A stretch of DNA of 64,000 nucleotides, from positions 1,937,564-2,001,563 of the forward strand of contig CM057062.1 in NCBI GenBank assembly GCA_029945375.1, given 5' to 3'. Shown piece by piece: positions 19,976 through 62,407 of the stretch (position 1 is its first letter; every line of letters begins with the position of its first letter). This DNA is from Agaricus subrufescens. Its lineage: Eukaryota > Basidiomycota > Agaricomycetes > Agaricales > Agaricaceae. The notes beneath the pieces were generated by a model. The model made no database searches and was not told the DNA's origin. It saw only the letters and a program-made list of their open reading frames with translations. Made by a program: the position numbers and the translations under genes.

Positions 19976-20058
19976 GCTTCTTGACCTCTTACCACTACCT
20001 TCCTGTTTTGGAAGCCTCAGTGCTAGAGCTGTACTAGGAGCAATACACTGTCTACGCT

Positions 20059-23000
20059 ATGGATACTCGACCCGACTTCGACGATGGAGGCTGGGAGAGC
20101 AGCAACAATGAGAACTTGCCCCCCGATTTGCATGCGATGAAGGAGGCAATGGACATCGCTTCTTGAACTTAAACCACTACCTTCCTCTTTTGGAAGCCTC
20201 AGTGTAAGAGCTATGAGTAGCAATAAACGCAGTGACATGGACACGTCTGGCGACTGGTTCAAAGATACTGCCCCTGCTGTCTCTGATATGGACTTTGAGT
20301 GTCTTCTCATGGAGGCGCAGGAGTCCACATCCCGTATAATGGCCAAGGACGACCCACCACCCAAGCCAAAGACGCACGCTGAGAAGATGCGTGCAAAATT
20401 CGGAAAGGCCATCGCTCATGACGACCCCCCGCTCCCCACCACACCGGTAACCCCCACCCCCTCATCCTCTTGCCAGGGCAGGGGAATGACACCTGAACAC
20501 CTGACAAATCTCCTCAATTTGCCAGCGCTCTCCACTGCCTCCTGTGCCGCTTCAATCTACTCGCCCTCCCAGGTGCCTGGAAAGAAGCATCATTTGGCCA
20601 ACATGCTGTCGATGGCCGCTGACATCGTGCAAACCACCTCCCCTGACAAGAACTTTGTTGGCTATGCTGGTGAACTTCTCCATCTCATCTTCATCATCTT
20701 GCGGAGTGGCGCCCACAAGAATCTGGAATTCCAAAACATGACTGGTAACAACTCCTTTGAAGTCGCACTGGCCATGCTCATCGCTCAAGCTGGACCGCCA
20801 CCCCCTTCCCCAGTCAAGCCCACCACCCCCCTCTTCCTCCCTTCCACCCCGGTCGTTCCCTCAAGTCGCCCCCGGTCCCCGATGGCCGAGGGTGAGGTAG
20901 CCACCCCGGTCCCGAAAAAAGTCCGGATCCAGTCACCTGGGTCCACACCCAAGCAAGCCACTTCTGGAAAGCGTGCCCCGGCTGCGCCCGCAGCTGTTTG
21001 AGCACCTTCCAAGAGCAATCTCAAAGCCAAGCTGACCCCAGTCCCCTCTCTTCCTAAGGCCCCGGCTCCCTCCTCTGCCCCCGCTGTGTCCCGCCATGCT
21101 CCAGCATGCAAGGGCAAGCACACCAGCCACGGTGCTTCGCACTGTGGGGTCCTTATCCATCCACTGGCCAGATCTCAAATCCGTGCCATTAATATCACTC
21201 CCGGAGGACCTCGGGAGTGTAACCGCCACCTCAAGGATGACCTCAAGTCTGAGGTCATTCTAGAATCTTCCATCGACTCGGCTTCCGGCATTTTCATTGC
21301 TGCCTCCCAGGTTCTGTCTAAACCGGAATCAGCGTGCGTGCTTAGGCATGTATGCTGCCTCATCGATCCCAACGGACTAGTACTGCTCCAGTCTGCCACT
21401 CCCACTTCCACGTCCTACCTCAAGGTTCTGGACGTACCACTCGTCCTGGCTCCCCCTGCCACCTGGATCCAAGTGCAGTGCGAGGTGTTCACCATCGCAT
21501 TGCACAACTCTCCTGTGGGTAAACCCTTATCCGCACACATCAAGCACGCCGTCCGCTTTATGCGGACATCACGTAAGTCCAACACTTGCATAGCTTGGGT
21601 TGACATTGCAGACTCCGTCTCTGGCCGCACGGCCCGGGACTTTATTGGTAAGCACGTCTTCATTGGCGGGCGAAATTGTCAAATCTGCAGTGCTGCCCCG
21701 CGGCCCGGCTCTGCCCTCTGCACTCAGTGCCAGAGGTGGGGCCACCACGCTGATGTATGCCGCTCTAAGGGCATACGCTGTCCTCACTGTGCGGGCCTGC
21801 ACTCAGCCAACTTGCATATCCAGGCATCCATAGCGATGAAGAAGAATCCGGACGACCGTCATTGCGCCAACTGCTCTGCAGCAAAGAAGAAGAACTCGGC
21901 GCACTCCACAACGGACGCTTCGTGTCCATTCTGGAACAATCATTTTGATTGGGATTGGCTGCGGCGCCAGTTCCCATCAAAGAAGTAGTAAGAGTCATTC
22001 CTTATTTTGGGAGCACGCGCCGCCGGCACCCACCACTTTCCTTCGCCATTCTGTCCGCGATCATTAACCAGCTTGACAGAAAATTGGGGCTGTATCCAGG
22101 TCTATATGTAGGTGATATGTGTTTGTTTGAGCCACGGCTCGCTTCGCTTGCCTTATTATGTACAGACCTATCATTTCCTTTTCTTTATGATTTGTTTTTC
22201 TTTTCTCTCCTCGAGGCGATGATCTTTCCGCTGGATACATTTATACTTTGTTGTTTGGGGCTTAATGTTTTCTCCTTTGGATACGCGTCATGGCATCCGT
22301 TTCCTTGTAGTGTGCCCAGATTATCTACCTGGATGTCCTATAGCTACTTGTGAATAAAGGTCCACCGAGAGGTGCCGTTGATACAAAAAAAAAAAAAAAA
22401 AAAAAGGAGGCAATGGAAGTAGAGGTGTTCGGGCTGCCGCCCAAGACACCAAAGGCAAGCCGAGCTGAAAAGCTTCGCTCACAACTGAAGATGAAGGGAA
22501 AGGCTGGTGGCACTGGCTTTTTCTCTTCTCCCGACCCCCCTGTCACCCCGACACCAGGCCCTTTGCAAGCTGCAATGATGACTCCGTGGTCGTATGCGAC
22601 TCAGAGCCCGAAGACTCCATTTGGTCCGCCAAGGCCCCCTGCGGCGACCTCTTCCCCTGTACCCTCTCCCTTGGTTGGACGCTCTGTGCGTCGAGCCAAC
22701 GACTCTCTAGCCCAGCAGCTCAAGGAGGCCGTCAACGCCGCCAAGCAAGCTGGCCCCACTGAGAAGTTTGATTCACTCGCAGACGAGCTTCTTCGCTCAC
22801 TCTGGACCATTCTCAAGGCTCCCAACCTCTCCCAGCGCCAGTTCATGGGCATGGGTGGCTTTGCGCCGTTCGATGTTCAGCTCGCGCAGACTATCGCATC
22901 TGCTGGCCCCCCTCCTGAGGTCCCCACTCCCACCCCGGTCCCAGCCACGCCCCCTCCCCCCTTGGCCACGCCCACTCCATGCCCTTGGTCTCCTATGGCC

Positions 23001-24110
23001 GAGGCTGAGGCTGATGCAGCCAAAATGAATAAGTGGCCCAAGGTAAGCCACCCAGCCCCACCTCCTAAACCTGTGGCTTCTAGAAGTTGTGCTCCGGCTG
23101 CGCCCATAGCTGCTGTGGCACCTTCCAAGGCCAAGAAACAGGTCAAGTTTGCGCTCCCTTCCTCCCCCTCTGCGCCTTCTCCTGCCTCCACCCCCACTGT
23201 CTCCGTCAAGCGCCCCTCCAAGCGCAAGGCCAAAGGCAAGCACACTGACCACAGGCTCTCTTGCTGTGGAGTCCGCATCATTCCCCCGGCCAGAACTACT
23301 ATCCATGCCACTGATGTCACTCTGGCTATCATAGCTGAAATCAATGCCCACCTTAAGTCCAACCTCAAGTCAACTTTCTTGGTGGAACATGCTATCAACA
23401 TCAAGACCGGTCTCTTCTTAGCCGGTAACCATGTCCCTTCTGCACCTGAAGGCAACTGTGTTCTCAAACACATTCGCCGTCTCATCACCGTCCCCAGGAT
23501 TATCCCTATCACCACCGCCCCTGTCACATCGATTTCTTATCTCAAGATAATCGATGTTCCACTTATTCCCGCTGAGTCCCACACTTGGCTCACCTCTCAA
23601 TGCATTGCCCTCCAGGCGGTTCTCGCTATCTCCCCTGTCGGCCAACAACTTGCCCGCCACATTGCCCATGCCCCGTGCTTCATGCGCACTTCCCGCCATG
23701 CTGACACTTGTGTCGCATGGATTGACATCACAGACGCAGTTTCCAGTAGCAATGCCAGAAACTTTATTGGTAAGCAAGTCCTGATTGGAGGACGCAACTG
23801 CCAGATCCGGGGCGCTGCCCCTCGGCCCGGTTCCGCCCTGTGCACTCGTTGCCAGCGGTGGGGCCACCATTCCAACGTATGCCGTGCTAAAGGTATACGA
23901 TGTGCTCACTGCGGTGGTCTGCATTCTGCCGACAACCACGATTACTCATGCGCCGCGTCCCGCATCAACGCCACCATCCGTCACTGCATCAATTGTTCTG
24001 CAGCCAAGAAGAAGAAGATGACGCACTCCAGCACGGACACTTCATGTCCGTTCTGGGAACATCAGTTCGATTGCGACTGGCTCAAGTGCCAATTCCCATC
24101 GAACAAGTAG
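20059..24110 (+). CDS. ORF1 of half-LINE H6, open apart from H7 insertion
   Basis: The two parts, 20,059-20,153 and 22,418-24,110, together make 596 codons in one frame with no internal stop, from MDTRPDFDDGGWESS to DWLKCQFPSNK and TAG. The domains in order are an acidic N-terminus, a proline-rich region, KAKGKHTDHRLSCCGVRI, the conserved central region, CTRCQRWGHHSNVC, CAHCGGLH, CINCSAAKK, and CPFW. The second zinc unit has Leu before its His (GGLH). The element was probably coding when H7 landed. The product is inferred to bind the element's RNA, as ORF1 proteins of LINEs do. Confidence 0.8.
20154..22403 (+). mobile_element. half-LINE H7 (subfamily A), nested in H6
   Basis: A 2.25-kb full-length copy bounded by AAGGAGGCAATGGA at 20,140-20,153 and 22,404-22,417. 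It starts CGCTTCTTGAACTTAAACCA, encodes ORF1, and ends AATAAAGGTCCACCGAGAGG, GTTGATAC and about 20 A. The perfect duplication and intact tail make it one of the later insertions in this block. Confidence 0.92.
20213..21988 (+). pseudogene. ORF1 of half-LINE H7, single TGA
   Basis: Starts MSSNKRSDMDTSGDWF and ends DWLRRQFPSKK and TAG, about 592 codons in one frame. The only stop inside is TGA at 20,999 after APAAV, the same place as in H4, H13 and H14. The middle has KGKHTSHGASHCGV, the conserved region with LKDDLKSEVILESS, CTQCQRWGHHADVC, CPHCAGLHSANLH and CANCSAAKKK. Except for this stop and a few ligand-adjacent changes it looks functional. Confidence 0.85.
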
Positions 24111-24580
24111 GACTTTTCGCCGGGTCTTTCAGGGCAATGGCGCGCTGCCATCCCATTATTTTTTCATTCAGTGATTCATTTCTCTCTTTGCATATCGACA
24201 ATCGTCTCGTGTATGAATACCGCTGCCAATGCGGCGCTCCAAGTTAGTTCAAACCGGATAGGGTCTGTTTCAGGCGCCGTCCTGCCTTGAAAGTTAGGAC
24301 ACTTATTATTTCGACTCTATATGATTTTTTCTTTTCTCCTCGAGTGCTTGACCATGTCACGCAGGATACGTTTCTCCCGCCACCAATGTATAGCTTGACT
24401 CAATGTACCGAACTTGTGGCCTGGTTTTGGATACGTGTTATGACATCCATTTCTTAGTAGTATGCTTGGATTTGCGACCTTGTAGTAGCTACTTTGAATA
24501 AAGGCCAGCTGGCAGGCCCCGTTGATTTTAAAAAAAAAAAAAATAGGCATTGAATCGCACGAGTCATGGTGGCAAGATAC

Positions 24581-25063
24581 TTTTTTTTTTTTTATAATCA
24601 ATGGCCTGCCGTTTTTATTCAAAGTAGCTACTACAAGGTCGCAAATCCAAGCATACTACTGAGAAAGGGGTGCCATAACCCATATCCAGAAGGGGCCCAA
24701 TCCAAAACAGGGAGTCATGCTTACAAAGTGGGCAAAAGAAACGTATCCGCACGATGAGGTCAAGCGCTCGAGGAGAAAAAAAAAAACAAATCATAAGAGT
24801 TGAGATATTAGGTGGACGAACCATCAGTCCGGGACGAACAAAACACAGTCAACCTCTGGCCAATCCTTCCCTGGAACCCCGTGTTGGCAGGTGAGATGCG
24901 AATATGAGACAAATATCAATGAAAAAGGAATATGTCACATAAATGGTGGAACAGCAGTGTGTCAGAACTCCGAAATGCCCAATGAGAAGTGCTACTTGTT
25001 CGACGGGAACTGGCGCTTGAGCCAGTTGCGGTCGAACCGATGTTCCCAGAACGGACACAAAGT
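24581..25063 (-). mobile_element. half-LINE H8 3' fragment (subfamily B)
   Basis: Poly(T), 3' UTR and only the last codons of ORF1 (CPFWEHRFDRNWLKRQFPSNK-type) on the minus strand. It is cut at the copia LTR of C5. Its left duplication TGGTGGCAAGATAC (24,567-24,580) is not found at its own broken end but at 27,977-27,990, beyond H9. H8 and the 5' part now attached to H9 therefore appear to have been one insertion. Confidence 0.82.
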
Positions 25064-25718: not shown

Positions 25719-27976
25719 TTTTTGTTTTTGTTTTTGTTTTTTTTTTTTTATAATCAATGGGGCCTGCCGGCCGGCCTTTATTGCAAGTAGCTACTACATC
25801 GGTTGCAAATCCAAGCATACTACAAGCAAACGGAAGCCATAACGCATCTCCAGAAGGGGCCCAATCCAATACAGGGAGTCATGCTTACAAAGTGGGCAAA
25901 AGAAACGTATCCGCGCGACAAGGTCAAGCACTTGAGGAGAAAAGAAAAAACAAATCATAAAAGTCAAAATATTAGGGGAACTAACCATTGGTCCGGGATG
26001 AACAAAACACAGTGAACCTCCGGCCAGTCCTTCCCTGGAACCCCGCGTTGGCAGGGGATATGCGTACATGAGACGAGAGTTGAATGGAAAGGATAGAATG
26101 AAACACATAGATGATGGAACAACATCACGCCAGAACTCCGAAACACCCAATGAAAAGCACTACTTGTTCGACAGGAACTGGCACTTGAGCCAGTTGCGGT
26201 TGAACCGATGTTCCCAGAATGGACACAAAGTGTCTGTGCTGGAGTGCGTCGTCTTGGTCTTCTTGGATGCGGAACAATTGACGCAATGGCGGATGGCGGC
26301 GTCGACGTGGGACGTGGCGCAGGTGGAGTCGTGGCAATCAGAGAAATGCGGACTGCCACAGTGTGCGCACCGGACACCTTTAGCCCAGCACACATTAGAG
26401 TGATGGCCCCATCTCTGGCACCGAGTGCACAGAGCAGAGCCGGGCCAGGGAGCAGCACCCTGGACCTGACAATTCCGACCACCTATAACAACAGTCTTAC
26501 CAATGAAGTCGCGGGCTGAGCGGCCTGAGATGGAGTCAGAAATATTGACCCATGCAACACATGAGTCTGCTTTTGGTGAGGTCTGCATGAAACAGACCGC
26601 ATGAATGATGAGGGGGGTAAGAGCATGGCCTACCGGTGATTCTTGCATAGCTGCCTGGAAAGCGGCCCTCTGCGCATAGATCCAAGTGCGTGACTCGGAC
26701 GGAATGAGGGGAACGTCGATAATCTTGAGGTAAGACGTCGATGTCACAGGGGCGGATTGGATGGGGATGACCCCAGGAGTGGTGACAAGGTGGCAGATGT
26801 GCTTGAGCACACAATTCCCCTCGGGAGCGGACAGGACTTGGTTACCGGTTATGAAGATGCCAGCCTTGATGTCCATAGCATGTTCTAGAATGAAGGTCGA
26901 CTTGAGGTCAGCCTTAAGGTGGGAGTTCACCTCGCTAATAATAGCGGGGGTGATAGAAGAGGCTAGAACGTTAGTTCTGGCTGGGGGAATGATACGGACT
27001 CCACAACGTGAAAGCCCATGGTCAGTGTGTTTGCCCTTCTGTTTACACTTGGGAGCGCAAACAGATACGGCTGGGGATGAGGGGAGGCCAGCAAACTTCA
27101 CCAATTTCTTTGACTTGGGAGGTGCCGCAGCAGCTGCAGGTGCAGCCGGGGCACGACTCTGAGAGCCGGCGGGTTTAGGAAGGGGACCCGGGTGGCTTAC
27201 CTTGGGTCACTTGGTAATTTTGGCCGCGTCAGCCTCGGCCTTGGCCATAGGAGACCGGGGGTGTGGTGTGGGCGTGGCCGATGGGGGAGAGGGTGTGGCT
27301 GGGACAGAGGGAGGGGGGGGGCAGAGATTCCGGGGGCAGTCCAGCACTGGCAATGACTTGAGCAAGTTGGACATTGAAGGCCGCAAAGCCTCCCATGCCA
27401 AAGAACTCACATTGAGAGAGGTTGGGTGACTTAAGAATAAGCCACAGCAATCATAGGAGCTTGTCCATCAAAGCGTCCAAGTGTTCTGTGCATCCATTGA
27501 CCTTGGCTGTGTGCATGGCTTCACCAAGGCTGTCAGCCAGAGAGTTCTTGGCCCTCTTCAGAGGAGTGGGGACCAAGGGGGAGGGGAGGGGAGAGGAAGT
27601 CGCAGGGGGGTGCGGCAGTCCAAAAGGTGTCTTCAGGCTTGCAGTCGCATATGACAACGGAGTTGTCACAGCTTGGGACAGGCCAGGGGTGGGGGTGGCG
27701 GGGGTGGCAGGTTGCTTACCCTTCGCCTTGAGATGAGACCGCATCTTGTCGATACGGCTCGCCTTTGGAGTCGCCGGTGGAGGCGGCGTCTCCCTCATAA
27801 TCAACTCTCACAGCTTGCACTGCAGCTCATTCGGCACTTCTCCATCGTCAGACCAGTCGCCAGAGTCGAAATCCGGGCAAGTATCCATCATTAGAGCAAA
27901 TGTATTCCTACTCAAGCACTTCCACTGAGACTTCCAAAACAGGAAGGTGGTGGTTGCGGTTCAAGAAGGGATGCTC
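25719..27976 (-). mobile_element. half-LINE H9 (subfamily B)
   Basis: A minus-strand ORF1-only element with 5' box CTTCTTGAACCGCAACCACC and a 3' UTR containing the GACCTTGTCGCGCGGATACG box and GCCCCATTGATTATAAAA. The poly(A) is interrupted by C at regular spacing (A5C units). The left flank is copia gag (C5), but the right flank (TGGTGGCAAGATAC) belongs to the H8 insertion site. H9 as seen is therefore probably a recombinant between two half-LINE copies. Confidence 0.82.
26160..27888 (-). pseudogene. ORF1 of half-LINE H9, broken
   Basis: Begins MDTCPDFDSGDWSDDGE. In-frame TGA codons follow at about codon 27 and again after DKLL, and a frame change lies near 27,230. The C-terminal 314 codons are open: KGKHTDHGLSRCGVRIIPPA, a conserved region with CVAWVNISDSISGRSARDFI, CTRCQRWGHHSNVC, CAHCGSPHFSDCH, CVNCSASKK, CPFW, and NWLKCQFLSNK before TAG. 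Confidence 0.83.
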
Positions 27977-31642: not shown

Positions 31643-31730
31643 TTTTTTTTTTTGTAATCAATGGGATTTATTTCAAAATTGACCTTAAGGGTGCCATAAT
31701 GTGTTCCCTGTACTTTACATCACCTGTACA

Positions 31731-34700
31731 CTACCTCTGTTGGCACGAGACATTACATGGAGAAAGAGACAACATAGGCGCAAAAGAAACATATCCGGCA
31801 GATGAGGTCAACGCCATTTGAGAGAGAGAAAATGAAAATGAAAATGAAAAGGGGGAATAGTCCTGATCCTTCGAAACCGAATACAAGTACATGACATATA
31901 GAAGTGAAACAGATAAAAGGAAACGGTGAAATACCAATACAAAGAACAGAAACTCCTTGCACCTTCTCCTAACGTTCTGTGACGTCCACGGCTCCATCTT
32001 CATCAAGCTGTCAAAGAAGACCCCACTCCATTCGTTGACCTCCCAGACATTTTCATATAGCGAATTTATCGTCTCGTGATAAAAGATCTTGCCCATTAGT
32101 AAAGGAAGACATTTCTTCTTCCTTTCTTTATTCTCTTCATCCCTTTGGTGGTACACATCGTCATAGTACTTCTGCCAGTCAGGCTCAGCGATCCTCGGTA
32201 CTCGAGTGAGTTTGGCATTGTCTTCAAACGCAAACGCTTTGGGGTTATCATAGGAAAAGAATGAGTCCTTGGATGGATTTGATTCCGTTGATAGAGTAGT
32301 GCTCGGCTCTTCGAACATAGAGTGGACACACATTGAGGATATAGCTTTGGGTCTCTGGTGAATCTTGGTTACATCGACAGACCTTGAAGGGTTCGTTCGG
32401 AAAGAATCTAGCGCAATACAATCCAATTGGGGTGTGATTAGTGATCATGTGGGTGAGACGGGCGCATAGGGGGGCATGGTTGGCAATGGTGGCTCCACAA
32501 TGATTGCGGAGCCATGATCCTAAATTTAAGTGAGTGGGTTTGTCAACTTTATACTCATTCTTATCTGAGACAGCAGCACTGCCCTGTTTTAACTGTCCAG
32601 ATTTCTTCTGCTGATGTGGTTGATGGTCTGGTGAGGAGCTGTCCGGGCTCAACATCCCATCCCCGAAACCAACGTCCAAGTTTCTTTCAACGCGACCAAA
32701 GGGGGAGGTGGCTAGCCCTGCTCTCAATTGCTGCTTGGGATTGTCTACCCACATGTGATCCGGATACGAAGCACTATGCTTCAACCTCTCAGATCGATCC
32801 ATGCAGGAGAATGTATTGTACCAGCCGTGCCCCTTGAAGCACTGCCGGTCCTTTGGGTCGTCGAAACCCTCTTGCCAGACTGAGATAGCATCTTTGACTG
32901 TTTTGCTTCTTGCCCAGCTGTAAGATGCGGACTGTGGAAATTGGCGTCCCACTGTGTTGAATGTCTGTGCTTTGTTGGCGTTGTAATACACCTGGAAGGC
33001 TGCGAGTTGGAGACCTTCGTTATAATCTGGCTCCTTGGTTGCCCAGGACTCTCGAAAGCCCTTCACCAGAATGTCCACAGTTGGGAATTTGGTTACAAGA
33101 GCATCAAACATGAGAGAGATGGCAATGGATAATTGACCGCCTACAGGCTTGGAATTGGTCGCCATCAAATTACAAATGGTTGTGGGGGAAGTGGTGTAGA
33201 GAATGACTCTTTTGACGTCGAGTCCCTTCTCTAATTTGCGATAGGCTTTGAGGAGGCCAAGGAAAGCGGACCATCCTATAAGCGTTTCTTCCATAACTCT
33301 CCTACCAGCAGCTTGGGATTTGGACGATATCGTTCTCCTATGGTGGATGACAGAGAGAGCAATGTGAGAATGAGAATGATCCTCGAGATGATGATGAGGG
33401 TCATAGGAATGTTTGACGCCTGCTGTGATGATGTGAAGGTCATCGGTATTGTTGAGATTAGCAACTTGGATGTTGTCATGATAATCCCGTGATAACTTTG
33501 AGTTCAAGGGGGGCGTCTCGAACTTGATGCGGTCCAGGTATGTGTCAATGAATCTCCGTTCCGGTTGTACATGCTCAGAGAGGGGGTCAAATATCTCTTT
33601 GCAAGGGATGTTGATGATGGTGTCGAGGGCAACTTCATCTTCTTTTGGATTGCTTCGGTTTTAAATTCCAAAGCATTTGGATGGAGGGGAGTCTCCTTGG
33701 CTTTCCGCCGTTCCACAAGTGAGAGAACGGGATGGTGTGGATGAAGGGTGTTGAGTCGAGCGATGGCCCAATTGAACAATTTGCGGATGGTGATGGAGAT
33801 GGGCATGAGGCCAGCCACGGCACTCATTTCACCTAGGGGGGTTGTGCGGAATGCTCCAGTAATACAACGCGCTCCTTGATTGTGTGTAGCTTCCACCATT
33901 TTGAGATTGGTGCGGAAGCATCGGGTACCTGGGATATACCAACAGCGAAGGCCAAATGCTGCTATTGGTTGTATGCATGAGACGTAAAGAATGCGCTTTT
34001 GCTTGGCTGTGAGGCCGCACGCTGAGTTGCCTAGGACTTTCATACAGTGGACTGCAGAAAGCGACTTGGTAGCGTAAAATTTGACATGTTCTTTGAAATT
34101 GAGGTTGTGGTCGAACATGATCCCGAGGTACCTCCACACTGTTTTCGGGGTGAGGGGGCTTGAAGCATCGAAGGGGGCAAATCCAATATCAAGGGAGGGA
34201 TTGGCCAAATGGTAATTGCGGGCGGAATCTGCAAAGTGGAAAAGTTCCGTCTTTGTGTGTTCCATTACAAGACCAAAGTCGTTGAAAATGGAAGTGATGT
34301 GGGTGTACGCCTCTTTTAGAGAGTCCATAACGTTGTTTCTACAATCCCCCGTGGCAACAAGAAGTCCATCGTCCACAAAAGAAAGAAAAGCAGTCAAAGG
34401 AAAATGAATACGAGCCTCATCATCTGATAACCAAGAGTCCAATAAATGAAACACGGGCGCAATATACAATGCAGAAAGAATTGGAGAAAGAGCGCTACCT
34501 TGTCCTACACCTACATCCGAATCGAATAAAGGGGAGGTTTGATTGTTAATAGAATATTGAGTTTTTCGACCTACTAAATAAGAAGAAAAGAAGGAAACTA
34601 CTTTACTTGCAAAACCAAAATGTTTGATAATTTTAGATAATGCCTGATGATTAAGAGAAGGAAAAGATTGAGCCACGTCGAAAGCAATAACCGAAGTGAC

Positions 34701-36563
34701 CTTTTTGTTTGACCATCCCGCTCAGACATGATGAGTGAGGGATACAGCCACATCGTCAACAGATTGTTGGATGATACCACCAGTCTGACATGGGTGAATA
34801 GCTCCTGACGTGACCCCTTTGAATTGGAGCCGCCGTGTGATCATTTTCTCTATGAGTTTCCCCATAGTGTTGAGTAGGACGATTGGCTGAAAAGATTTGG
34901 CCGTGCTATAAGATGGTTTACCCAGCTTCGGGATGATGATGGATACCGAGTTTTTGAAATGCTTGGGCCAGTATCCTACTTTGATACAGGCATTAGCAAT
35001 GTTTGTTATGAGTTCACATATTTCGTTAGAAATGGCAAACTGTTTCCATAACCTCCAAGTGACGTTATCCGGCCCAGGCACGGTGTTCTTTGTGCAATTG
35101 TTAAGGGCGTCATGGAATTCTTGAAGAGAAAACAGCGGCCATTCTCTTTCTTCAAGTTTGTCAATCTTCTCCGTGAACCATTCAAGATTGATGGATCGGT
35201 TGTTGGCAGAGTTATATGTATGATGGAGGTTGTCAAAAAGCTTTTGAGGGCTATCGCATGGTGTTCCTTGTTGGTCTAGGATGGCTTCCACCACTGGAAG
35301 TTTGTGTTTGCAAGTCCATGGCATAAGGTCCCATGGTCTTTGATTGTTGGTTGCCATTTCCTCAATTTTCTTGTCGAAGTGTTCCTGTTTAGCTTTTCGG
35401 ATGGTGCGTTTGAGATTACCACATTCCACCCAATTGCATGAGCCACCATTTCTCCTCATCTTCTGGTACACCTCTTTACACTCCTCATTCCACCACTTTT
35501 TCCCATGATGGCTCGGTTTTCTTTCTTCCGCGAATTTCAGCCACGCACTCTCTAGGATGTCCGCCGCTCTTCCCATAGTCGTCTCTAGTTCCTCCTCTGA
35601 CCCTAGAATGTTTCTCTCTAAGCTTCCCAGCTCTCTCCATATCATCTTAACATATTCCTCCTCCTCCTCCGAATACGCCTCAATCTTTAACTTTCCCCTC
35701 TTCTCCAGTTCAGCCCCAAGTACAGGAATCTTGATGAGGAGAGGGCGGTGATCCGACGTCCATCTCCTTGCGTCTTGAGTTTGAATTTCATATCCAAATC
35801 CCTGTAAATTTAGTATATCCACCGAAGCAAATACTAGGTCAAGTACAGATGCCCTTGAGTTAGGGTTATCTGGGATGCGCATCGGTTCACCTCCATTAGA
35901 GGGCTGAACATAGATGATTTCTAGATTCGACATGACATTTTTTAGTCTCATATACGGGGAGGAGCAACCATATTGTGAGGCCGCTCCTTCATCTCATCCC
36001 CAGTCTTGGATATTAAAATCCCCAGCACATAGTGAAATAGGTGGAATGATATCACTTACTGCGTCTAGCTGGTGTACCGCCACATGGGTCTGGCCGTCGT
36101 TGTACACATTGAGGATATTGAATTTGCTGGGTACACCAGCTAGGGGTCGGTTAATATGCAGTGTGACTAGTGACATGTCATGATGCTTGATAATGTCGGA
36201 TCGGAGTTGAGGTCTGAAAATGTCAAGTCTTTTGTTAATATACGTGAGGACCCTTCGATCAAGTCTCTCTGCATCCCTATTGTTGTAAGCCTCTGTAAAT
36301 GGAGACCAAGATGGGTGGATGGGGGGGCCATATGCCATGTCCCCTTCCTTGTTAGTATTAGATGGCTGCCTACGCACGCCCCTCCAGCCGGGTTCTTGGA
36401 ACAAAATAATGTCAACAACCCCGGCGAGTTTGTCTAGTACGGTAGAAGTGGTTTCCTAGTTCTTCTGCACATTAAATGATAAAATAGTAAAATTATATGT
36501 ACTTAATGAATGTGGTGCGAGGTTTTGAGTCTCGCTTGATGATGGTTGGTCATCACTATTCAT
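31731..36563 (-). pseudogene. ORF2 of L1: endonuclease, reverse transcriptase, RNase H-like
   Basis: The ATG overlaps the ORF1 stop as ATGA. An APE-type endonuclease follows (FNVQK, DIILFQEPGW, AGDFNIQDWG, SDHRPL). Next are reverse transcriptase (NTVPGPDNVTWRLW, a TGA in HHV*AGWSNKKV, GVGQGSALSPILSALYIAP, active site FLSFVDDGLL) and a C-terminal part with an RNase H-like order of segments. The expected TDGS reads TAGV, so its catalytic acids look lost. The end has CRCNQ...CPLY. Stops fall after NVQKN, after FNIQDWG and in the reverse transcriptase, and frame shifts lie near 33,530 and 32,300. It is inactive as it stands. Confidence 0.88.
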
Positions 36564-39500
36564 TGGGATGAATCGGTGACCTCGATTACTTGGGAGGGCG
36601 GTGCCTCGAAAGCCTGTGTAATGTTAGCTTTTTGCCTCTTGCGCTTTGTGCATTCAGCGTTATTGTCAGCAATGCGGCATTGTTCATGCCACATGACATC
36701 GTGTTGGTGTCGTTTATAGACACATTTAGAATTGTTGGCAGCATGTGCGCTACCACAGTTGAGACATTTAGGAGCGTGCTTACATCCTTTGAAGTCCAGT
36801 TTCTTTCTTTCTTCACCACAGCAGGGTCCAAATGTGTCATGGTTTTCCGTTCGGTGAGGGTTCTTGCATCTTGCACAGATATTGTGGTTGATGTGACACC
36901 TGGAGGTTCCGTGATTCCATTTCCAGCACTTTTGGCACTGGGGAACAAATTCACGTTGGCAAGCGTATTTGAGCCGGATGAGGCGACCTCGCATATTGTA
37001 GACTTTGTTGACCAGGTTCTTTGTGAGAAGTCTGGCCTTGGAATCCCAAACGTCTAAGAAGACGACGCATTTGTCATTAGAGCCTTTGCACTTGACGACA
37101 GTGGGTTCAGCTTTCGCTTCGAGTCCGCGGAATTGTACCACGTTCTGCATAGCTGCTAAAACTTGCTCGCCGGTTAGTATACTTTCCGGATTGCGAGCGG
37201 GGAGATTGGTCCAGTAGTCGAACCCTTTCATGATGAGGTGAGCCACTGATTGTGGTGCTTGTGGATCTTCGATTTGTTTGTCTGCTGGGATGTCCAGAGT
37301 GAACATGAGTGCCTCTTTGACGGCATTGAAACCCTGTTTAGATGGGACAAGGTTAAGGTAGAAATGAATGACCATCTTGAATAGATGGCCGCTTTGGACA
37401 CGAAGTTATGACTCTGACGTCATCAGAGCCTGGTTCATTTTGTCAACAACCGCTCCCATGTCTTTGAAGCATTCTGGTTGGACAATGTGGCTGAAGCCAA
37501 ATTGGGTGGACTTTCTGTTGAGTCCAGCCAAGATACCTTGCACTGCTTTTTGGGCCGTGGTCTGGTTGTGTCCTTTAGACACATGGGAATTGGATCCGGC
37601 TGAAGCCAATGAGCCCGATGAGGGGGGGGTAGTTACCATCGGTGCTACTGTCTTGAGTGCCTCCTGAATGGACATTTCAGGGTATGCCTTCTTGAGTTCC
37701 ACAGCCCATTGGACAGCCTCAGCCGGCATGTTGGGGGTGATGGGAGGTTTGACGGTTACCAGCTTCTTGAGGGCCGATGCATAAGAAACAGGGGCAGGCT
37801 TAGCTTGGGCCCATGGTTTGGTGGCTAGGTTTGCCTTAGGAGCGTTAACGTTAGCCTTATGCAGGGAAATGGGAGGAGGAACTGCTTGTCCTTGGAGGAG
37901 TTCCTCCAATTGGATGACGAGATTTTTAGATGGCCCGGCCTTTGGCTAAGCCTTACCTTTACTATTCGCCTGTTGTTGTGCGGCAAATTGGACGAATTTA
38001 TTGGCCTTGGGCATGGCCACAATCTTGATGGGGGAAGGGGCCAGGATAGGGGCTGGCTTGGGAATGGGGGCAGGAGGGGTGGGGATTTTCTTATCTTTAC
38101 CTTTCTCCTTTGCAGTAAGATGCGGAGGCTCTGTGTCAACCTCCATGGGGGCGACAGCACTTGGAGTCAGGGCCACATTCTGTGGTTGCTGGACTTGATG
38201 GGAGGGGGTCGGGTTGATGGGGAGGGGGGGGAATCCTTCTCTCATCTCATCTCTTCTCTTCTTCGCATAAAACTCAACCATATGGCTGAGAGACCCACGA
38301 TTAGGAACAATGACATTTGCCCAGTCCGTTCCGAGGAGCAGACTGACAAAGTCAACAAGGCGTTCGGCAACGGCAGGAGCATTACCGACTTGATTGGGAG
38401 TAATTTGCATGAACGGATTTAATACCGCTCGTAGTTCCCTCAATAGATCGTTGAGCTCATCTAGTTCAAACATGATGTGCTCAGAGTGTTGTTTGGGGAG
38501 TGCTGGGGAGCTGTGGCACATTTCCTTGTCAACAATTTTGCTGGTAATTTCTTTTGATTTAGAAATATTGGCTTGGAATTCTTGAGCGGATTTTGTCTTT
38601 TCACTGCTTGTGACAATTTCAGCCGAAGATGACCGATTGGCTTCCTTGACCTTGAGGGCATAGAGCTGTGCCACGGTCGCTTTCTGAATGCACAGCAAAG
38701 TAGGGGTCTTGTCAAGGTCTGGAATTGGACCTCAGCTCGGGGGGGTGATTTGCCGGACTCGGAGAGCCAGGCTTTTGATTCCTGACGGTTCTGCAGAAGT
38801 CGCATAATCCGTAGGTGGGTTGGCTGGTGTGGCCTCTGTGGTCTTCAAAGCTGGATAGCTAAGAAGAGCCGGATCGGGAGTCAGAATGCCGAAGCTTTCC
38901 GATTGGACAGACAAGGGGATGGTCTGTGCGGGCTTGAGAGCCAGATGACTCATCAATGCTGGTTTGGGTGTAGGAAAGACCAGGCTTTCCGATTGGGCAG
39001 GACGGGGTGACGTGGCCTTTAGAGCTGGGTGGTCCAAAAGTGCAGCATCTGGGGTGGGCTGTCCATAGCTGGGGGTAGCATAGGACAGGGGAGTAGCGCT
39101 CCATCTTGGGGCAAGGTGGAGGTTGTCAAGCATCTCTGGACCAGGTGTAGAGAAACCATAGTCGCTTGAGGTTTGTCCAGTGGCAGCGGCTTCTTCTTCC
39201 TCTTGTCTCCACAACCTCCTGATTCTCTCTCTCTCAACTCTCTCAAATACCCTTGGATTGTCCTCTGGCTCGCTCTCCTCCTCACTCGACTCCTCTTCCT
39301 TGTCCTCCTCTTGGGCAATCTCCTTATCTGTTGCTGGATCCTTGGGAGTGGGTCCAGCTTCCTCCACTTGTTGAGCCTCTTCAGCTCGCACTTGGTCGAG
39401 GGTTTTGAACGCCGATGGTGCCAAAATACCCTTCAACTCTCTGGACATGGTTCCCTTCTTGGCCGGGACCATGGCTTTAATAGCTCCTTTGACCTTCAAT

Positions 39501-39607
39501 CTGAATTTCGAGGTTGTAGAAGCATGGGAAGCAACAGAGCGGATGCTCCCTGTGGGTGATGGTGGTCGCGATGGATGTTCGTACGGCTGGGGTCGCTTTC
39601 CAGACAT
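36560..39607 (-). pseudogene. ORF1 (gag-like) of L1, three in-frame stops
   Basis: About 1,016 codons in one frame from MSGKRPQPYEHPSRPPS, stopped by TGA at 38,734-38,732, TAG at 37,948-37,946 and TAA at 37,408-37,406. The N-terminal half is charged and repetitive, with several units of the form LLxxPALKxTxxxP. The C-terminal part has three Cys-rich knuckles: CQKCWKWNHGTSRC, CARCKNPHRTENH and CLNCGSAHAANNSKC. This is the layout of Tad1/I-clade ORF1 proteins, which bind the element RNA. It is longer than, and clearly different from, the half-LINE ORF1, though the knuckle order is alike. Confidence 0.85.
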
Positions 39608-39747
39608 ACTGGGGCACAGGGGGTCACGAGATATCAAGTGTTATCCCTGTAGAGCAGAATATATTCCAACTAAATGCACGTCCAACACCAAAATCCTAAA
39701 TAGGAAGGTGGTGGTAAGAGATCAAGAAGGAATGGAGTAATCTGCTG

Positions 39748-42700
39748 TCATGTTTATACCTTGCTCAGCACAAGGGCTTCAATATTACCATTTCTGCTTG
39801 CTCTATCGCTTTCCAGTGCAAGGGAACAACACTTTTTATGGCCACTATTCACTCCAACAACTCTGCTGAGCTAGATGGCTCTACAATCACTTCCAAGGCT
39901 GCTTTTGCTGTCTCTACACTGCCAGCTGACCTCTCCCTGTGGCATCGTTGCTTCATTCATCACAATTATGCTGATGTGAAGTCTATGTTGAGTAAGGACC
40001 TTGTTACAGGCCTCAAACTCGATTCTAATGCTCTCCCTGACCCTATATGCGAGCCCTGCCTTGCTGGCAAGATGCATTCACTACCATTTCCTCCCTCCCT
40101 CAATCACAATCGATCCCCTCTTGAGCTGGTGCATTCAGACCTTCACAGACCGCTCCCAGTCGCTTCCCACTCAGGCTACAAGTACTGGATCACCTTTATA
40201 GATGATGCAACACAATTCCGGGCTGTACACTTGCTTAAAAGCAAGTCAGAAGCCTTTGAAGCATTCAAAGTCTACAAATCTTGGGCTGAGAACCAACTTG
40301 GAGTCAAAGTTCGGGCTCTACAGGATGATAAAGGCGGTGAATACATGTCTAAAGCATTCCTAACGTTCACGGAGCAGTCTGGGATCAAAAGGAGGCACTC
40401 TACTTGCAACAGGCCTCAGCAGAATGGCCTTGCAGAAAGAGCTAATAGGACTATGGGTGAAAGAATCACTGCTATGCTCTTGGAATCTCAACTTCCTGCC
40501 TCTTTCTGGGGAGAATGTGTATCTTCTATGGTCCATGTCTGGAATAGGCTGCCTACAGTGTCGCTCTCTGGCACTACACCCTTCCAGGCCCTCTATAAGC
40601 GAAAGCCTGATGTCTCCCACCTCTGAGTATGGGGGTGCACTGCCTATGTGCATGTACAGCGAGATAAGAGGACTTCTCTGGAGCCTCACTACAAAAAATG
40701 CGTCTTTATAGGCTATCCTGCAGGCTACAAAGGCTGGAAGTTCTACAATCCAGTCACTAAGCGTTCAGTGATCTCGGAGAGAGCTGATTTCGATGAAAGG
40801 TACTTTCCTGGGACTTCTAGAGCCCAACTCGATGCTGTTCCATCATTTGCTGGCCCTCCCCCCTCCCCTGAGTCTCAGAATGTTTCTGAGCCCTCTCCTG
40901 CACCACCAACGTCACATTTCAGAGTGCCACCTCTCCTAGATGAAGGGGGTGATATTAGCCCTCTCCCTGCTTGCTTTCAGTCTCCCAGTCCGAGAACTCC
41001 TTCTGTTCCTCTCGAAGAGGAGGCTCCTCCTCCTCCTCCTAGCCCTGCTACTCTGCCTCCACAAGCTCCAATTCTGCTCCCTGTGACTCCTCCCACTTCT
41101 GGAGTGCCCCCTGAGCCTCCAAGAGTGCCATGTCGCACTGGGCGCGTTCGGAAGCCCCCTGGTGACTGGTGGAAGGTCAGGCAACCTAATCTGCCTGCTA
41201 GAGACCTAGAAGACAACAACGAGGCTGCTCTTTCAGCTGATACTGACTTCTATGAGGTCAAGTTTGCTGGGGCTGTTTCTACAGCTGATCCTCGCACCTA
41301 CAGGCTGGCTATGCAGTCCCCTGACAGGGAACACTGGGTCAATGCCTGTAACACCGAGATCTTCAATCTCGAGGCTAACAGGACTTGGGAACTCACTGAG
41401 CTGCCTCCTGGTAAGAAGGTAGTCAACTCTGGATGGGTATTCAAGGTTAAAAGGCATGCCGACGGCTCAATTGAGCACTATAGGGCTCGCCTTGTTGCTA
41501 AAGGGTTCTCCCAATGTCCTGGCTTCGATTACACTGAGGTCTTTGCCCCTACATTTTGTCCTGCCTCTCTGAGACTCATTATAGCTCTGGCTGCTAGACA
41601 AGGCTTCAAAATGCGCTCTGTTGATATCTCCTCTGCCTTCACTTATGGGGAACTCGAGGAGGAGATCTACATGAGGCAACCAGAGGGCTATCATACTGGG
41701 GGACCTCATATGGTCTTCAGGCTCCATAAATTGCTCTATGGCCTTATGCAGGCTGCCAGACAGTGGAGTAAGAAGCTCCAAGGTGTTCTAGAGGGTATCG
41801 GCTACTCCAGACTTCGCTCCGACAACTCCATATACATCTATTCCAAGGGAGACATCAAGGTCATTGTACCAGTCTTCATTGATGACATTACCCTAGTCTC
41901 TAAAAGCAATGCAGCCATGGCCTCTGCTGTCTCAGAGCTGTCTAGGCACTTCAAACTGCGAGATCTAGGCTCTACCACTCTTCTGCTGGGCATTCAGGTG
42001 AAGCAGGATTGCTCTAAGCGTTCCATCTCCCTCTCCCAAGAGCACTACATCAAGGAGCTCCTAGAACAGTTCAATATGGACGATTCTAACTCCCTTTCCA
42101 CCCCTCTACCTCCTGGCTCTGAGCTCTCAGACATTATTCCCTCACTTGAGGAGCAGGCTGAGATGAAGTCAGTTCCTTATCTCTCTGCTGTAGGTGCCCT
42201 GCAGTATCTGGCCACCATGACTCGACCCAACATTGCCTATGCTGTCTCCTACCTTGGGAGATTCAATCACAATCCTGCTCCTGCCCATTGGCTTGCTGTA
42301 AAGCATTTACTTCGCTATTTGAAGGGCACAATGCACTACCAGCTTGTCTACCAAGGTAGTGACTCTAGAGAGCTGTTTACCACCTATTCTGATGCTTCCC
42401 ATGGTGGCTGCAAGGCCACAGGTCGAGCTACAGGTGGTTATGTGACTCTAGTGTCTGGGGCTGCTGTAGGATGGTCCTCAAAGCATCAGCCCTTTGTGAC
42501 TCTCTCGAGTACTGAGGCTGAATTTGTTGCTGCCATTGAAGCTGGAAAGGAGATCAAGTGGACTAGGAACATTTTGACTGAGTTTGGCTATCACCAGACA
42601 CTTCCTTCAACACTTTTCATGGATAACAAGTCTGGTATCAGTGTAGCCAAGAATCCTGAGCACCACGGGCGCATGAAACACCTAGATCTTCGGTTCTATT

Positions 42701-42840
42701 GGCTCTGCGAGGCTGTAGAAGATGGAGTCATTGATCCTCTCTATGTATCCACTGACCAGCAACTTGCGGACATCCTAACCAAGGCTGTATCAAGGAAAGT
42801 TGTTGACTTTGCTGTGCCGTTGTTAGGACTTGGAGCTTAG
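39748..42840 (+). pseudogene. copia C7 protease end, integrase, reverse transcriptase, RNase H
   Basis: Continues C7 past L1: SCLYLAQHKG, pre-integrase HRCFIHHNYAD...CEPCLAGK, integrase core HSDLHRP, DDKGGEYM and GLAERANRTMGE. A TGA at 40,624 follows (C3 has CGA in SHLRVWG), then an unbroken 730-codon frame with linker, reverse transcriptase (SVDISSAFTYGELEEEIYM, VPVFIDDITLV) and complete RNase H (TYSDASHGGCKATGRATGG, SSTEAEF, MDNKSGISVA). Apart from the single TGA and L1 the reading frame is intact. Confidence 0.93.
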
Positions 42841-44256: not shown

Positions 44257-46555
44257 TTTTTTTTTTTTTTTTTTTTTTTATAATCAGTGGCACCTCTCAG
44301 TGGACCTTCGATTCAAAGTGCTACTACATCAAGGAGATAATTTGAGCCTACACTAAGAACCCGGATGCCATAACGCGTATCTGATGTGAGCCCGGTGGTC
44401 ACTACATGGAGTCATTCTATACAAAGTGGGGGGAGAAACTGTATCCACGCGACGTGGTCAAGCGCTCAAAGATGACAAAAGAAAAATCATAACCCAAAGC
44501 CAACAATTCAAAAGAAAGGAAAAATAATGAGGTGAGAGTGGTACAGACCAAAAAGGAACCGAAGCTCAACCTATACAACTCCATAGACCCACACCCCGGA
44601 TACGCTAGCGACTATAGGCCAGCGGTTGTCCACGCAGACAATAGAGTGAGGAAAGATGATGTGTGCACTAATAGCAACTCACGAAATAGGGCGATGCTAC
44701 CCTACTACTTCTTGGATGGGAATTGGCGGCAAATCTAATCCTGATCAAAGTGGTTAGCCCAGAACAGACATGAAGTGTCCATAGTGGAGTGTGCGGTCTT
44801 CTTCTTCTTGGCTGCAGAACAATTAGCACAGTGTTGGTCGTCCGGATTTCTCTTCATCGCAATGGTGGCCTGAACATGGGACTCCGCAGTGTGCGATCCC
44901 GTGCAGTGGGGGCAATGGATGCCTTTGGAATGGCAGACATCAGCATGGTGACCCCACCTCTGGCACCAAGTGCAGAGGGCAGAGCCGGGCCACAGGGCAG
45001 CGCCACGGATTTGACAGTTTCGTCCACCTATGAGGACGTGCTTACCAATAAAGTCACAGGCCATACAGCCCAAGATGGAGTCAGAGATGTCCAACCATGT
45101 GATGCATGTGTTGGAGTGGCGTGAAGTCTGCATGAAATGGACGGCATGTTTGAGGTGGCGGGATAAAGAAATTCCTACCGGTGAGTCATGCATTGCAAGG
45201 GTGAAGGCCTCGCGCTGCACCTGGATCCAATTGGCCGGTTTGGCCAGAATAAGAGGAATGTCTATCACTTTGAGATATGATGTGGAAGAGGGGGTGGCGG
45301 CCTGGAGGGGGACGAGGCCATTAGAGTCGACAAGACGGCAAATATGCCTAAGCACACATGCGGACTCGGGATGGGAGAGTACCCAGGAGGCAGCTATGAA
45401 AATGCTGGTACCCAAGTCGACAGAAGATTCAAGAACAACCTCAGACTTGAGGTCATCCTTAAGATGGTGATTGCATTCCCAGAGGATTTGGGGTATGACA
45501 CTAATGGCATGGATGTTAGATCCGGCCAGGGGAGTGATGTGGATGCCTCGTCGTGAAGCGCCATGTGTGGTGTGCTTGCCCTTACGTGCAGGTGCACGTT
45601 TGGACACAGCGGGAGCGGTGGCAGGAGCAGGAGCCTTTGGGAGGGAGGGGACAGCTGCGGGCTTAGCTTTGAGAATGCTTTTGGCCAGTGCTTGAACAGC
45701 TGCGGGAGCAGCCAGGGCATGCTTGCCTAAAGTGGGTTTCTTGGGTGGTCCAGGGGGCGACTGGATCCGGACTTTCTTCGGGACTGGGGTAGTGACTCTG
45801 TCCTCAGCCATTGGGGACCGGGGACGAGATTGAGGCACTAGAGGGGTTGAAGGGGGGAGGGGGGTGGTGGGTTTGACTGGGGAGGGGGGGGGGCGAAGCA
45901 GTGCCAGTCTGGCCAATGATGATGGCAAGGGCAGTCTCAAAGGAGGTGTTGCCAGCCATGTTCTGGAATTCAATATTCTTGTGAGTGCCACTCAACAAAA
46001 TATTATAAATGAGATGCAAGACTTTGCTGGTGTAGCCAGTGAAGTCTGCGTCAGGGCTCATCTGGGGTACTAAGTCAGCCGCCGTGGTGATTGACGCAGC
46101 CAATCTGTTCTTCTTACCAGGTTGGGACAAGGGCGAGAAGAGGGATTTGCGGGATGGGGTCAATGGATCTCCATGACCTGGAGTTTGTGGGCTTGCAGTC
46201 GCATACGACAACGGAGTCATTGTTGCTTGGGACGGGCCCGCGGGGGTAGGGGTGACGGGGATGGCCGGTTCCTTAGCCTTGCCCTTCTTTGCCAGATATG
46301 CGCACATCTTCTCCAGTCACGCGGTTTTCCTCAGAGAGTCCTTGGGGGGTAAGCCCCAGACCTCCGCCTCAGTACTCTTTGCAATCACCACCAAGACGGG
46401 TGGCAACCTCGTATCATCGTCACTGTCGGTCTCCCAGCCTCCGTTGTCGAAGTCTGGACGAGTATCCATGTTGTGTAGCAGATATATTACTCCTCAAGCA
46501 GAAACACTGAGACTTCCAAAAGAGGAAGGTGGTAGTTCTGGTTCAAGAAGTGATG
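44257..46555 (-). mobile_element. half-LINE H10 (subfamily A)
   Basis: A 2.3-kb full-length minus-strand copy flanked by AGTGCCTGTCTTCAT (44,242-44,256 and 46,556-46,570). It has the 5' box CTTCTTGAACCAGAACTACC, ORF1, a 3' UTR with GACCACGTCGCGTGGATACA and GAGAGGTGCCACTGATTATA, and poly(A). The usual AATAAA is replaced by GAATCGAAGG here. The 3' UTR is shared with H12. Confidence 0.9.
44705..46469 (-). pseudogene. ORF1 of half-LINE H10, broken
   Basis: Starts MDTRPDFDNGGWETDSDDD. A TGA interrupts just before LEKMCAYLAKKGK, a frame shift falls in a run of eight G near 45,890, and TAG replaces a Trp in FDQDW near the C-terminus. At the APAAV position it has CAA (APAAVQALAK) where four related copies have TGA. 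The conserved parts are KGKHTTHGASRRGIHITP, LKDDLKSEVVLESS, CTWCQRWGHHADVC, CPHCTGSHTAESH, CANCSAAKKKK and CLFW. Confidence 0.85.
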
Positions 46556-47979: not shown

Positions 47980-48612
47980 TTTTTTTTTTTTTTTTGTATC
48001 AATGGCACCTCTCGGTGGACCTTTATTCACAAGTAGCTATAGGACATCCAGGTAGATAATCTGGGCACACTACAAGGAAACGGCTGCCATGACACGTTGC
48101 CAAAAGAGAGAAAACATTAAGCCCTGAACAACAAAGTTAAAACATATCTGGCAGAAAGATCATCGCCTCAAGGAGAAAAAAGAAAACAAATCATAAAGGA
48201 AAAAGAAATGATAAGTCCATACATAATAAGATGGGCAAAACGAGCCGTGGCTCAGCAAACACATACCACCTACATACAAACTTGGATACAGCCCCAATTT
48301 TCAGACAAGCCAGTTTATGATTGCAGATGAAATGGCAAAGGAAAATGATGGATACTGACAGCGTGCGCTTCTGAAATAAGACATGACTCCTACTACTTCT
48401 TGGATGGGAACTGGTGGCGTAGCCAATCCCAATCAAAGCGATTATTCCAGAATGGACACGAAGTGTCCATTGTGGAGTGCGCCAAGTTCTTCTTCTTCGC
48501 TGCAGAGCAGTTGGTGCAGTGGCGGTTGTCTGGATTCCTCTTCATTGCTATGGACGCCTGGATGCGCGAGTTGGCCGAGTGCGGGCCCACGCAGTGAGGA
48601 CAGCATATGCCC
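47980..48612 (-). mobile_element. 5'-truncated half-LINE H11 (subfamily A)
   Basis: A 633-bp insertion flanked by AGCATGGCAGTGAT (47,966-47,979 and 48,613-48,626). It keeps poly(T) on the plus strand, the 3' UTR of the H2/H5/H7 type, and the last 73 codons of ORF1 (CPHCVGPHSANSR, CTNCSAAKKK, CPFW, DWDWLRHQFPSKK). By chance its frame is continuous with the copia integrase it interrupted. Confidence 0.9.
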
Positions 48613-50865: not shown

Positions 50866-51284
50866 AGGCTTTCATTGGCCTTTTCGGGAGTTGTTGCTGT
50901 ATGCACCCATTATTTCCTCATCGCTCTATCGTCTGTGTTTGGCACCAACGGCCCTCAAGCTGTTGTATCCGGGGTTGAAGTTAAGTGTAATGTTTTCGCT
51001 GTAGCTAATGCTCGCTTTGGGCACTTCTTCTTTTTCCTCATCATCTTTTTCGCGTTCATTTTGATATGTTTTTTCCTTTTTCATCAAGCACTTGACCTAG
51101 TTGCGCAGGATACAATCTCTCCCGCCCCTTTGTAAGTTTGACTTCATGTAATGGACTCGGGCCCCTATATGGAAACGCGTTATGGCATCCAGATTCTTAG
51201 CGTATGCTCAGAGTATCTAACTGTAGTAAATAGCGCTTTGAATCAAAGGTCCACTGAGAGGTGCCACTGATTACAAAAAAAAAA
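49435..51284 (+). mobile_element. half-LINE H12 (subfamily A), 5'-truncated
   Basis: A 1.85-kb plus-strand insertion flanked by AAACTGGCTCAAAGACC (49,418-49,434 and 51,285-51,301). It lacks the 5' box and N-terminus. The 3' UTR has the GACCTAGTTGCGCAGGATAC box, AACGCGTTATGGCATCC, GAGAGGTGCCACTGATTAC and poly(A), as in H10. Confidence 0.92.
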
Positions 51285-52399: not shown

Positions 52400-52571
52400 A
52401 GGAGCGAAAATGAGAGCAGGGGAAGCGAAATAGTTTGAGGGACGAGAGAAGGGAGGGAGTAGGAGTTGAGTTGATGATCAATTGCTTCTTGAACCAGAAC
52501 CACCACCTTCCTCTTTTGAAAGTCTCAGTGTTTCTGCTTGAGGGGCAATACATAGCATCCACATTGTCTTT

Positions 52572-62389: not shown

Positions 62390-62407
62390 GCTGCATTAAT
62401 AAAAGGT

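Follow-up and report, generated by a model that had tools for sequence, protein, structure and literature searches.

A candidate three-tier retroposon system with common ends in Agaricus subrufescens, with ORF1-only elements under purifying selection

The window analysed here is a 64,000-nucleotide stretch of Agaricus subrufescens DNA (contig CM057062.1 of assembly GCA_029945375.1; region C6:1937564-2001563), and the genome searched with it comprises 44.65 Mb in 44 contigs. Copia copies, one large long terminal repeat (LTR) element and many retroposons are nested in one another across the window. An earlier note on this DNA had sorted the retroposons into three tiers with common 5' and 3' ends: a long interspersed nuclear element (LINE), here called L; elements with only a first open reading frame (ORF1), here called H; and an ORF-less kind, here called S. 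The same 5' box and the same tail blocks indeed recur in L, H and S. The window copies of L and S, L1 and S1, comprise the following features.

31644..39733, minus strand: L1, 8.1-kb LINE copy with decayed frames, target-site duplication (TSD) and poly-A end, inserted in Copia
39703..39729, minus strand: L1 5' box, one of the genome-wide copies of the box pattern
36560..37405, minus strand: C-terminal part of L1 ORF1 with zinc-knuckle motifs (by eye) and relatives elsewhere in the genome
34722..35993, minus strand: L1 ORF2 piece, endonuclease end and start of the reverse transcriptase; weak Exo_endo_phos_2 match below cut-off
33504..34721, minus strand: L1 ORF2 piece with RVT_1 (E 9.4e-15)
31797..31815, minus strand: L1 3' hairpin, GGCG-loop-TGCC
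9000..10345, plus strand: S1, ORF-less, with 5' box and TTGATTACA(n); TSD 8986-8999 / 10346-10359

The insertion site of L1 lies inside a Copia element and is marked by a 15-nt TSD (39734-39748 / 31629-31643); its 3' end also carries TTGATTACA(n). L1 had been described as an autonomous LINE with endonuclease and reverse transcriptase. The reverse transcriptase stands by its RVT_1 match and the endonuclease match is weak, while autonomy does not hold for this copy, which is judged non-autonomous because its frames are broken. Long open stop-to-stop frames of the L class, of about 1000 aa for ORF1 and about 1570-1616 aa for ORF2, were located in copies elsewhere in the genome. L may belong to the Tad1-type clade; of that layout RVT_1 is clear, the endonuclease match is below cut-off and the zinc knuckles are seen by eye. 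S1 does lack an ORF, its longest stop-to-stop frame being just 158 aa. The view of S as a derivative with common ends applies to the ends; its body is its own, distinct from those of L and H. As to a Pol III promoter head of S derived from tRNA, 5S or 7SL, the Rfam search, which is all that bears on it, yielded no match within the window at gathering thresholds.

H is represented in the window by 14 pieces, 13 elements and one fragment.

3489..5671, minus strand: H-a, of a divergent H group, with L-like final tail part; TSD 5672-5687 / 3473-3488
8244..8710, minus strand: H-b, 5'-truncated, tail type 2, with TSD
13445..15720, minus strand: H-d, ORF1-only, complete from box to poly-A; TSD 15721-15736 / 13429-13444
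13876-15345: ORF1 piece of H-d
13625..13643, minus strand: 3' hairpin of H-d, GCGC-loop-GCGC
15982..18099, plus strand: H-e, start unsure, no 5' box found; ORF1 at 16687-17673
18135..19335, minus strand: H-f, 5'-truncated, with TTGATACA end
19973..20154, plus strand: 5' part of H-i with box, 93% to the H-d 5' end, interrupted by H-g
20155..22403, plus strand: H-g, inserted in H-i, tail type 2; TSD AAGGAGGCAATGGA
22419..24544, plus strand: 3' part of H-i with ORF1, 88% to H-d
24581..25063, minus strand: H-h, 5'-truncated
25720..27972, minus strand: H-j, ORF1-only, with box and tail; 71% to H-d over 2.0 kb
44258..46555, minus strand: H-l, ORF1-only; TSD AATGAAGACAGGCACT
47980..48612, minus strand: H-m, 5'-truncated, tail type 2, with TSD
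49436..51283, plus strand: H-n, 5'-truncated, with TSD
52481..54690, plus strand: H-o, with 5' box; tail end missing (LTR from 54691)
62404..63110, minus strand: H fragment, 87% to H-l

Seven of these pieces have a clear TSD (H-a, H-b, H-d, H-g, H-l, H-m and H-n), and four (H-a, H-d, H-g and H-l) were recovered in a second TSD test. Among rows with both box and tail, 12 of 22 gave a TSD score of at least 11, compared with none of 110 controls; two of the 22 rows duplicate window copies and one mispairs the H-i box with the H-g tail. The ORF1 of H-a is 42-49% identical to the other H rows compared. Comparison of copies in the ORF1 frames of H-g (near 21001) and H-o (near 53333) brings out stops and changes of Arg to Cys, His, Gln or Trp that by eye resemble C-to-T decay, perhaps at methylated CpG.

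The box is 27 nt long (CTTCTTGAN6ACCACYACCTTCC). With at most two mismatches it has 290 copies in the genome, the first 100 of which were listed individually, against one for the reversed control. The claim that copies begin with a common box is thus well founded at the genome scale, and within the window the box is present on 7 of the 14 H pieces. Its inner six bases are class-specific (44 exact S-type and 22 exact L-type copies), and directly 3' of it the classes diverge into TTTTGGAAGYCTCAGTG in most H, TTTAGGATATTGGTGTTGG in most L and TTTTGGGATRGGTGGGGC in S. On contigs C1-C7 the box was found within 2.5 kb upstream of 34 of 57 H ORF1 matches, 33 times at 892-1101 nt, and within 3 kb upstream of 11 of 17 L matches, ten times at 2.2-2.4 kb, seven one-mismatch L-type boxes having been added to the box set for this count. 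None of 18 matches of other LINEs on these contigs had it within 5 kb upstream. The other LINE lineages of the genome used for comparison are LX, LY and LZ. Two isolated boxes, at C6:2622463 and C11:470572, are distant from the main clusters of elements described below and are possibly rare insertions elsewhere.

At their 3' ends L, H and S have in common, with variation, the blocks GCG-loop-CGC-GGATACG, GGAACGCGTTATGGCA and TTGAT(T)ACA. Twelve L 3' regions were fetched and the tail was recognised in nine; the tail surveys omit three loci repeating window copies, identical pieces and tails with no readable loop signature. Local alignment of the last 230 nt gave a best z of 5.9-52 over six L tails in 16 of 17 H and S tails and of at most 4.3 for the same tails against LX and LY, a comparison of the best of six L tails with the best of two other LINE tails. 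In H copies L020 and L026 most of the 230 nt can be aligned with L tails, which looks like tail exchange between H and L. The GGATAC-type anchor is absent from the last 260 nt of the two other LINE tails read, those of LX and LY (L095 and L096); these also have TTGATT before poly-A, yet lack the GGATAC-anchored block.

The first tail block can be folded as a 4-bp stem with a loop of 10 or 11 nt. In 12 hand-chosen tails every one of the 48 cells pairs, and each of the four base pairs varies on both sides (AGCG/CGCT, GGCG/CGCC, GCGC/GCGC); the share of paired cells averaged 59% in shuffles and never exceeded 62.5% in slid versions, and the covariation score lay above 500 of 500 shuffles. Among 39 distinct unselected tails, four pairs were kept in 28, three in nine, two in one and one in one, while 5.3% of shifted anchors had four pairs. 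The broken hairpins mostly resemble, by eye, C-to-T or G-to-A decay. As read from these tail sequences, the hairpin is common to L, H and S and is preserved by compensatory change. Chance similarity of the ends is ruled out by the box count against its control, the tail z scores, the TSDs, the hairpin retention and the placement of the box upstream of ORF1s. The earlier note had held that its family would fall if the end similarity vanished on alignment; box and tail likeness both survived.

Tails come in two types. Loops starting with ATG occur together with TTGATACA (or TTGATAAA), and those starting with TTG together with TTGATTAY or a decayed version of it; all 42 readable tails follow this rule. 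Both types occur in every tier, the ATG-loop/TTG-loop counts being 4/27 in H, 3/6 in L and 1/1 in S. Two groups of L, L-A and L-B, are 92-99% identical in the C-terminal part of ORF1 and 59-62% identical over a 310-aa stretch of ORF2 (L043-L048, L050, L051 and L058 compared). The tails read were of type 1 in L-A (L071, L072, L074) and of type 2 in L-B (L075-L078). In L the tail type thus follows ORF2 and not ORF1, as expected if ORF2 reads the tail. The pattern, as it stands in these copies, is that of a natural exchange of an ORF2-plus-tail module between LINEs with near-identical ORF1, and it makes tail recognition by ORF2 directly testable. For H-g, plain alignment scores failed to split L-A from L-B (59-62 and 58 with L-A/L-C, 55-63 with L-B), and its affinity can be separated by the loop and end signatures only.

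Genome-wide totals are lower bounds: 131 of 433 candidates were scored for H ORF1, 138 of 304 for L-type ORF1, 99 of 117 for ORF2, 61 of 649 for Copia and 150 of 329 in one other search. The L-type ORF1 rows were sorted by identity and place, unaligned, into 35 of L, 41 of other LINEs and 24 further H-like places; the remaining rows duplicate H places, apart from about ten fragments or weak matches that stayed ungrouped. Of the 131 scored H ORF1 copies, one has an endonuclease/reverse transcriptase (EN/RT) match up to 2 kb downstream on its own strand, and this is an H that lies inside an L ORF2; the corresponding figures are 30 of 35 for L (at 569-570 nt in 25 cases) and 36 of 41 for other LINEs. 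This count bears out the earlier statement that most members are ORF1-only. Three more H copies have EN/RT at 4.2-5.9 kb downstream, one of them behind an L ORF1. The 24 further H-like places have none within 2 kb, and three at 4.7-6.0 kb. In 29 of 30 fetched H copies the 1.5 kb downstream hold no EN/RT, and the 30th is an H nested in L.

In the rows compared, H ORF1 shares 17-20% identity with the ORF1 of L and 26-29% with that of LY and LZ. In the ORF1 tree a branch with 100/100 support parts L and LX from H, LY and LZ; the root was set at the midpoint for drawing, and the program issued a warning about long branches that meet. H, the A. bisporus proteins and metagenome proteins form one group (100/100), within which the branching order among the two main H clades, H-a and the proteins from outside is unsupported. 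The first 200 nt past the ORF1 stop are alike in three of three pairs of one clade (L010/L020/L021; z 8.4-22.9) and in five of six pairs of the other (L035/L036/H-e/H-g; z 12-44.5). As far as such likeness goes, these comparisons show that the members of either main H clade inherited the ORF1-only state, a result that holds within clades. A 3' untranslated region common to all H groups past the ORF1 stop, suggested by a by-eye alignment, was dropped: the z scores bear it out within clades and hardly between them.

Of the 30 fetched H copies, 20 are free of stops over a part of about 300 codons, and ORF1 is open in several subfamilies. The median dN/dS by dS class is 0.17-0.25 for H and 0.07-0.09 for L; saturated pairs (2 of H, 87 of L) are without a value. 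Neutral placements that keep base and CpG context gave an expected mean pN/pS of 0.67-0.94 for H, while 0.06-0.55 was observed, and in each of ten H and four L pairs 0 of 300 placements was as low as observed. Judged by these substitution patterns, H ORF1 is under purifying selection.

The protein relatives that carry a species name are from Agaricus bisporus, and the homologs of H ORF1 among them have the UniRef name Gag-like. The model of an A. bisporus homolog has a beta-alpha-beta-beta-alpha-beta unit followed by a second unit resembling an RNA recognition motif (RRM), with Cys/His knuckles, seen by eye, after it. Its best structure matches were tandem-RRM proteins (hnRNP A1; E about 1e-3, root-mean-square deviation near 15 A); this H ORF1 model is weak overall, with a mean predicted local distance difference test score (pLDDT) of 55.6, and the L ORF1 model (mean pLDDT 35.7) is unusable. 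Pfam gave no match at E 0.01 on three H ORF1 pieces. H ORF1 looks like an RNA-binding protein with RRM-like units and zinc-knuckle motifs. The earlier description of a gag-like ORF1 accompanied by no polymerase keeps its ORF1 and its missing polymerase, and the protein is now better worded, from a weak model, as a predicted RNA-binding protein with RRM-like units.

H and L places define 25 clusters of at least two, covering 2.77 Mb with margins, so that 126 of the 131 H places and 34 of the 35 L places lie inside by construction. Features that played no part in the definition are also mostly inside: 40 of the 44 exact S boxes, and 50 of the 61 Copia places used (out of 79 Copia rows). Of the other LINEs, 1 of 41 lies inside. 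Some large contigs hold two clusters, and the only one on C9 is small and close to the contig start; a pattern of one cluster per chromosome is not evident. In A. bisporus, according to the covered parts of PMC7473861, every chromosome carries a single large repeat cluster that is methylated and is a putative centromere; Copia-28, four families of HaTad and two unknown repeats occur in all of these large clusters and nowhere else. The A. bisporus H-type protein Agabi119p4_8323 and L-type protein Agabi119p4_8329 are assigned to contigs of equal length and have locus tags six apart, and one A. bisporus H-type protein (P0025) runs by eye into a Copia polyprotein resembling that of the window. Because of the nearby tags, this H-type protein running into Copia and the HaTad/Copia-28 clusters, the nest is probably common to both fungi. 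By analogy, the clusters found here may be centromeres. HaTad may be compared with H: the H ORF1 homologs are A. bisporus Gag-like proteins, and beside the exclusivity of HaTad stand the 126 of 131 H in clusters that were themselves defined from H and L. Our guess is that HaTad stands for half-Tad and is H. The covered parts of PMC7473861 describe neither coding content, shared ends and driver nor tail types of HaTad.

We propose that L, H and S form one trans-mobilisation system in three tiers, in which L ORF2 copies H and S and H keeps its own RNA-binding protein, and we put the probability of this at about 0.77. L (8 kb, ORF1 and ORF2) would supply endonuclease and reverse transcriptase. 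Its clients would be H, of 2.2-2.3 kb, and S, of about 1.35 kb, both of which bear L's box and a tail that has the hairpin block and TTGAT(T)ACA ahead of poly-A. The ORF2 protein of L would recognise this common tail and copy the RNA of H and S by target-primed reverse transcription. H would be an ORF1-only lineage of other LINE ORF1 ancestry, kept by selection, probably for binding H RNA in cis. S is widespread with no ORF (44 exact boxes), therefore ORF1 in cis would not be strictly needed, and H ORF1 should confer an advantage rather than be essential.

Several observations weigh against this proposal. Two H matches are followed by EN/RT, at 4.2 and 5.1 kb, without an intervening L ORF1 match (L036, one of the two, ends in a tail of its own at the normal position), and EN/RT was sought with the L1 protein as sole query. 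H ORF1 is nearer to the LY and LZ LINEs than to L. Between the main H clades the likeness past the stop is scant (z at most 2.4 in 10 of 12 pairs, with one of 4.4 and one of 6.6), and the H-e tail reaches a z of only 3.8 against L. Two of five covariation measures are not above shuffles, double-change pairs being as high in 152 of 500 and pair types in 189 of 500. The loop/tail-end link comes from few lineages, type-2 tails being 8 of 42, and the 14 pairs of the selection analysis were hand-picked, eight of the ten H pairs being within-clade pairs.

Internal deletion of L1-type LINEs, the way HAL1 arose from L1, would account for both common ends and for the common genomic neighbourhood of H and L, and the earlier note had named it as the outcome that would undo its reading. 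The 17-20% ORF1 identity, the 100/100 split and the EN/RT-free regions downstream of 29 of the 30 fetched copies (the other nested in L) exclude H as deletion products of L1, so that we leave this origin a negligible chance. A driver other than L, LZ-like or unseen, with the L-like tail an old common descent of cis signals, is unlikely. It would draw on the position of H ORF1 on the LY/LZ side of the tree, itself a difficulty for L as driver, and on the TTGATT ends of LX and LY, which are the comparison tails; these tails lack the GGATAC-anchored block and score low, both L tail types recur in H and S, and other LINEs keep outside the clusters (1 of 41 inside). Conservation of H ORF1 for a host use, for instance in cluster chromatin, and not for mobility is consistent with the A. 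bisporus homologs and the mostly clustered copies, and is made very unlikely by the many diverged copies with poly-A, partly with TSDs, and by ORF1s open in several subfamilies.

That the clustering is passive, with insertion anywhere and persistence only in gene-poor nests, is a view to which we give slightly less than even odds: nested insertions are common and Copia is enriched too (50 of 61), whereas the LX, LY and LZ LINEs of the same genome do not accumulate there. Trans-mobilisation by L could further be one side of a two-way partnership at centromeres, L giving the enzyme and H ORF1 the binding to cluster chromatin, with neither tier holding the niche alone and the tail types acting as exchangeable keys for two ORF2 locks. 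This extension seems unlikely to us; if true, it would be the centromere counterpart of HeT-A and TART.

Tail sharing between short interspersed nuclear elements (SINEs) and LINE 3' ends is a general principle. S is like such SINEs in having no long ORF and a LINE 3' end, and unlike them in also having the shared 5' box and a length of 1.35 kb. HAL1 of mammals encodes ORF1p only, is non-autonomous and arose from L1 several times (PMC5753468, parts covered). The parallel drawn earlier between H and HAL1 is apt for the ORF1-only content; it fails for ancestry, HAL1 deriving from L1 whereas H is not half of L1, because its ORF1 belongs to another ORF1 lineage. At Drosophila telomeres, according to the covered parts of PMC6114517, HeT-A probably relies on the enzymes of TART/TAHRE; its Gag protein binds HeT-A RNA, and without HeT-A Gag that of TART does not get to the telomeres. 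Like H, HeT-A has no reverse transcriptase of its own and an enzyme-bearing partner in the same niche. HeT-A adds at chromosome ends, whereas H, S and L are TSD-flanked insertions inside Copia and other elements in centromere-like clusters; the present set also differs in its fungal LINEs and its ORF-less third tier. By analogy, the present set would work like HeT-A and is outside its kind by site and insertion mode, and is HAL1-like in content, not in ancestry.

Our literature search, which did not extend to ORF2/tail swaps, found no description of a three-tier system with common ends in fungi and a single directly relevant paper (PMC7473861). ORF1-only retroposons are usually read as broken LINEs; here the ORF1 is not that of the tail-sharing LINE and is kept under selection. 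Why a LINE parasite retains an RNA-binding protein becomes a testable question with H, in elements that crowd the apparent centromeres of a mushroom.

The remaining features of the window are these.

40627..42840, plus strand: pol part of the Copia family that hosts the nested elements
54691-62393: LTR retrotransposon with 568-bp LTRs (54691-55258, 61826-62393) that are 96% identical, starting where H-o breaks off
63275-63355: 30-bp tandem repeat with ATGACT-type units

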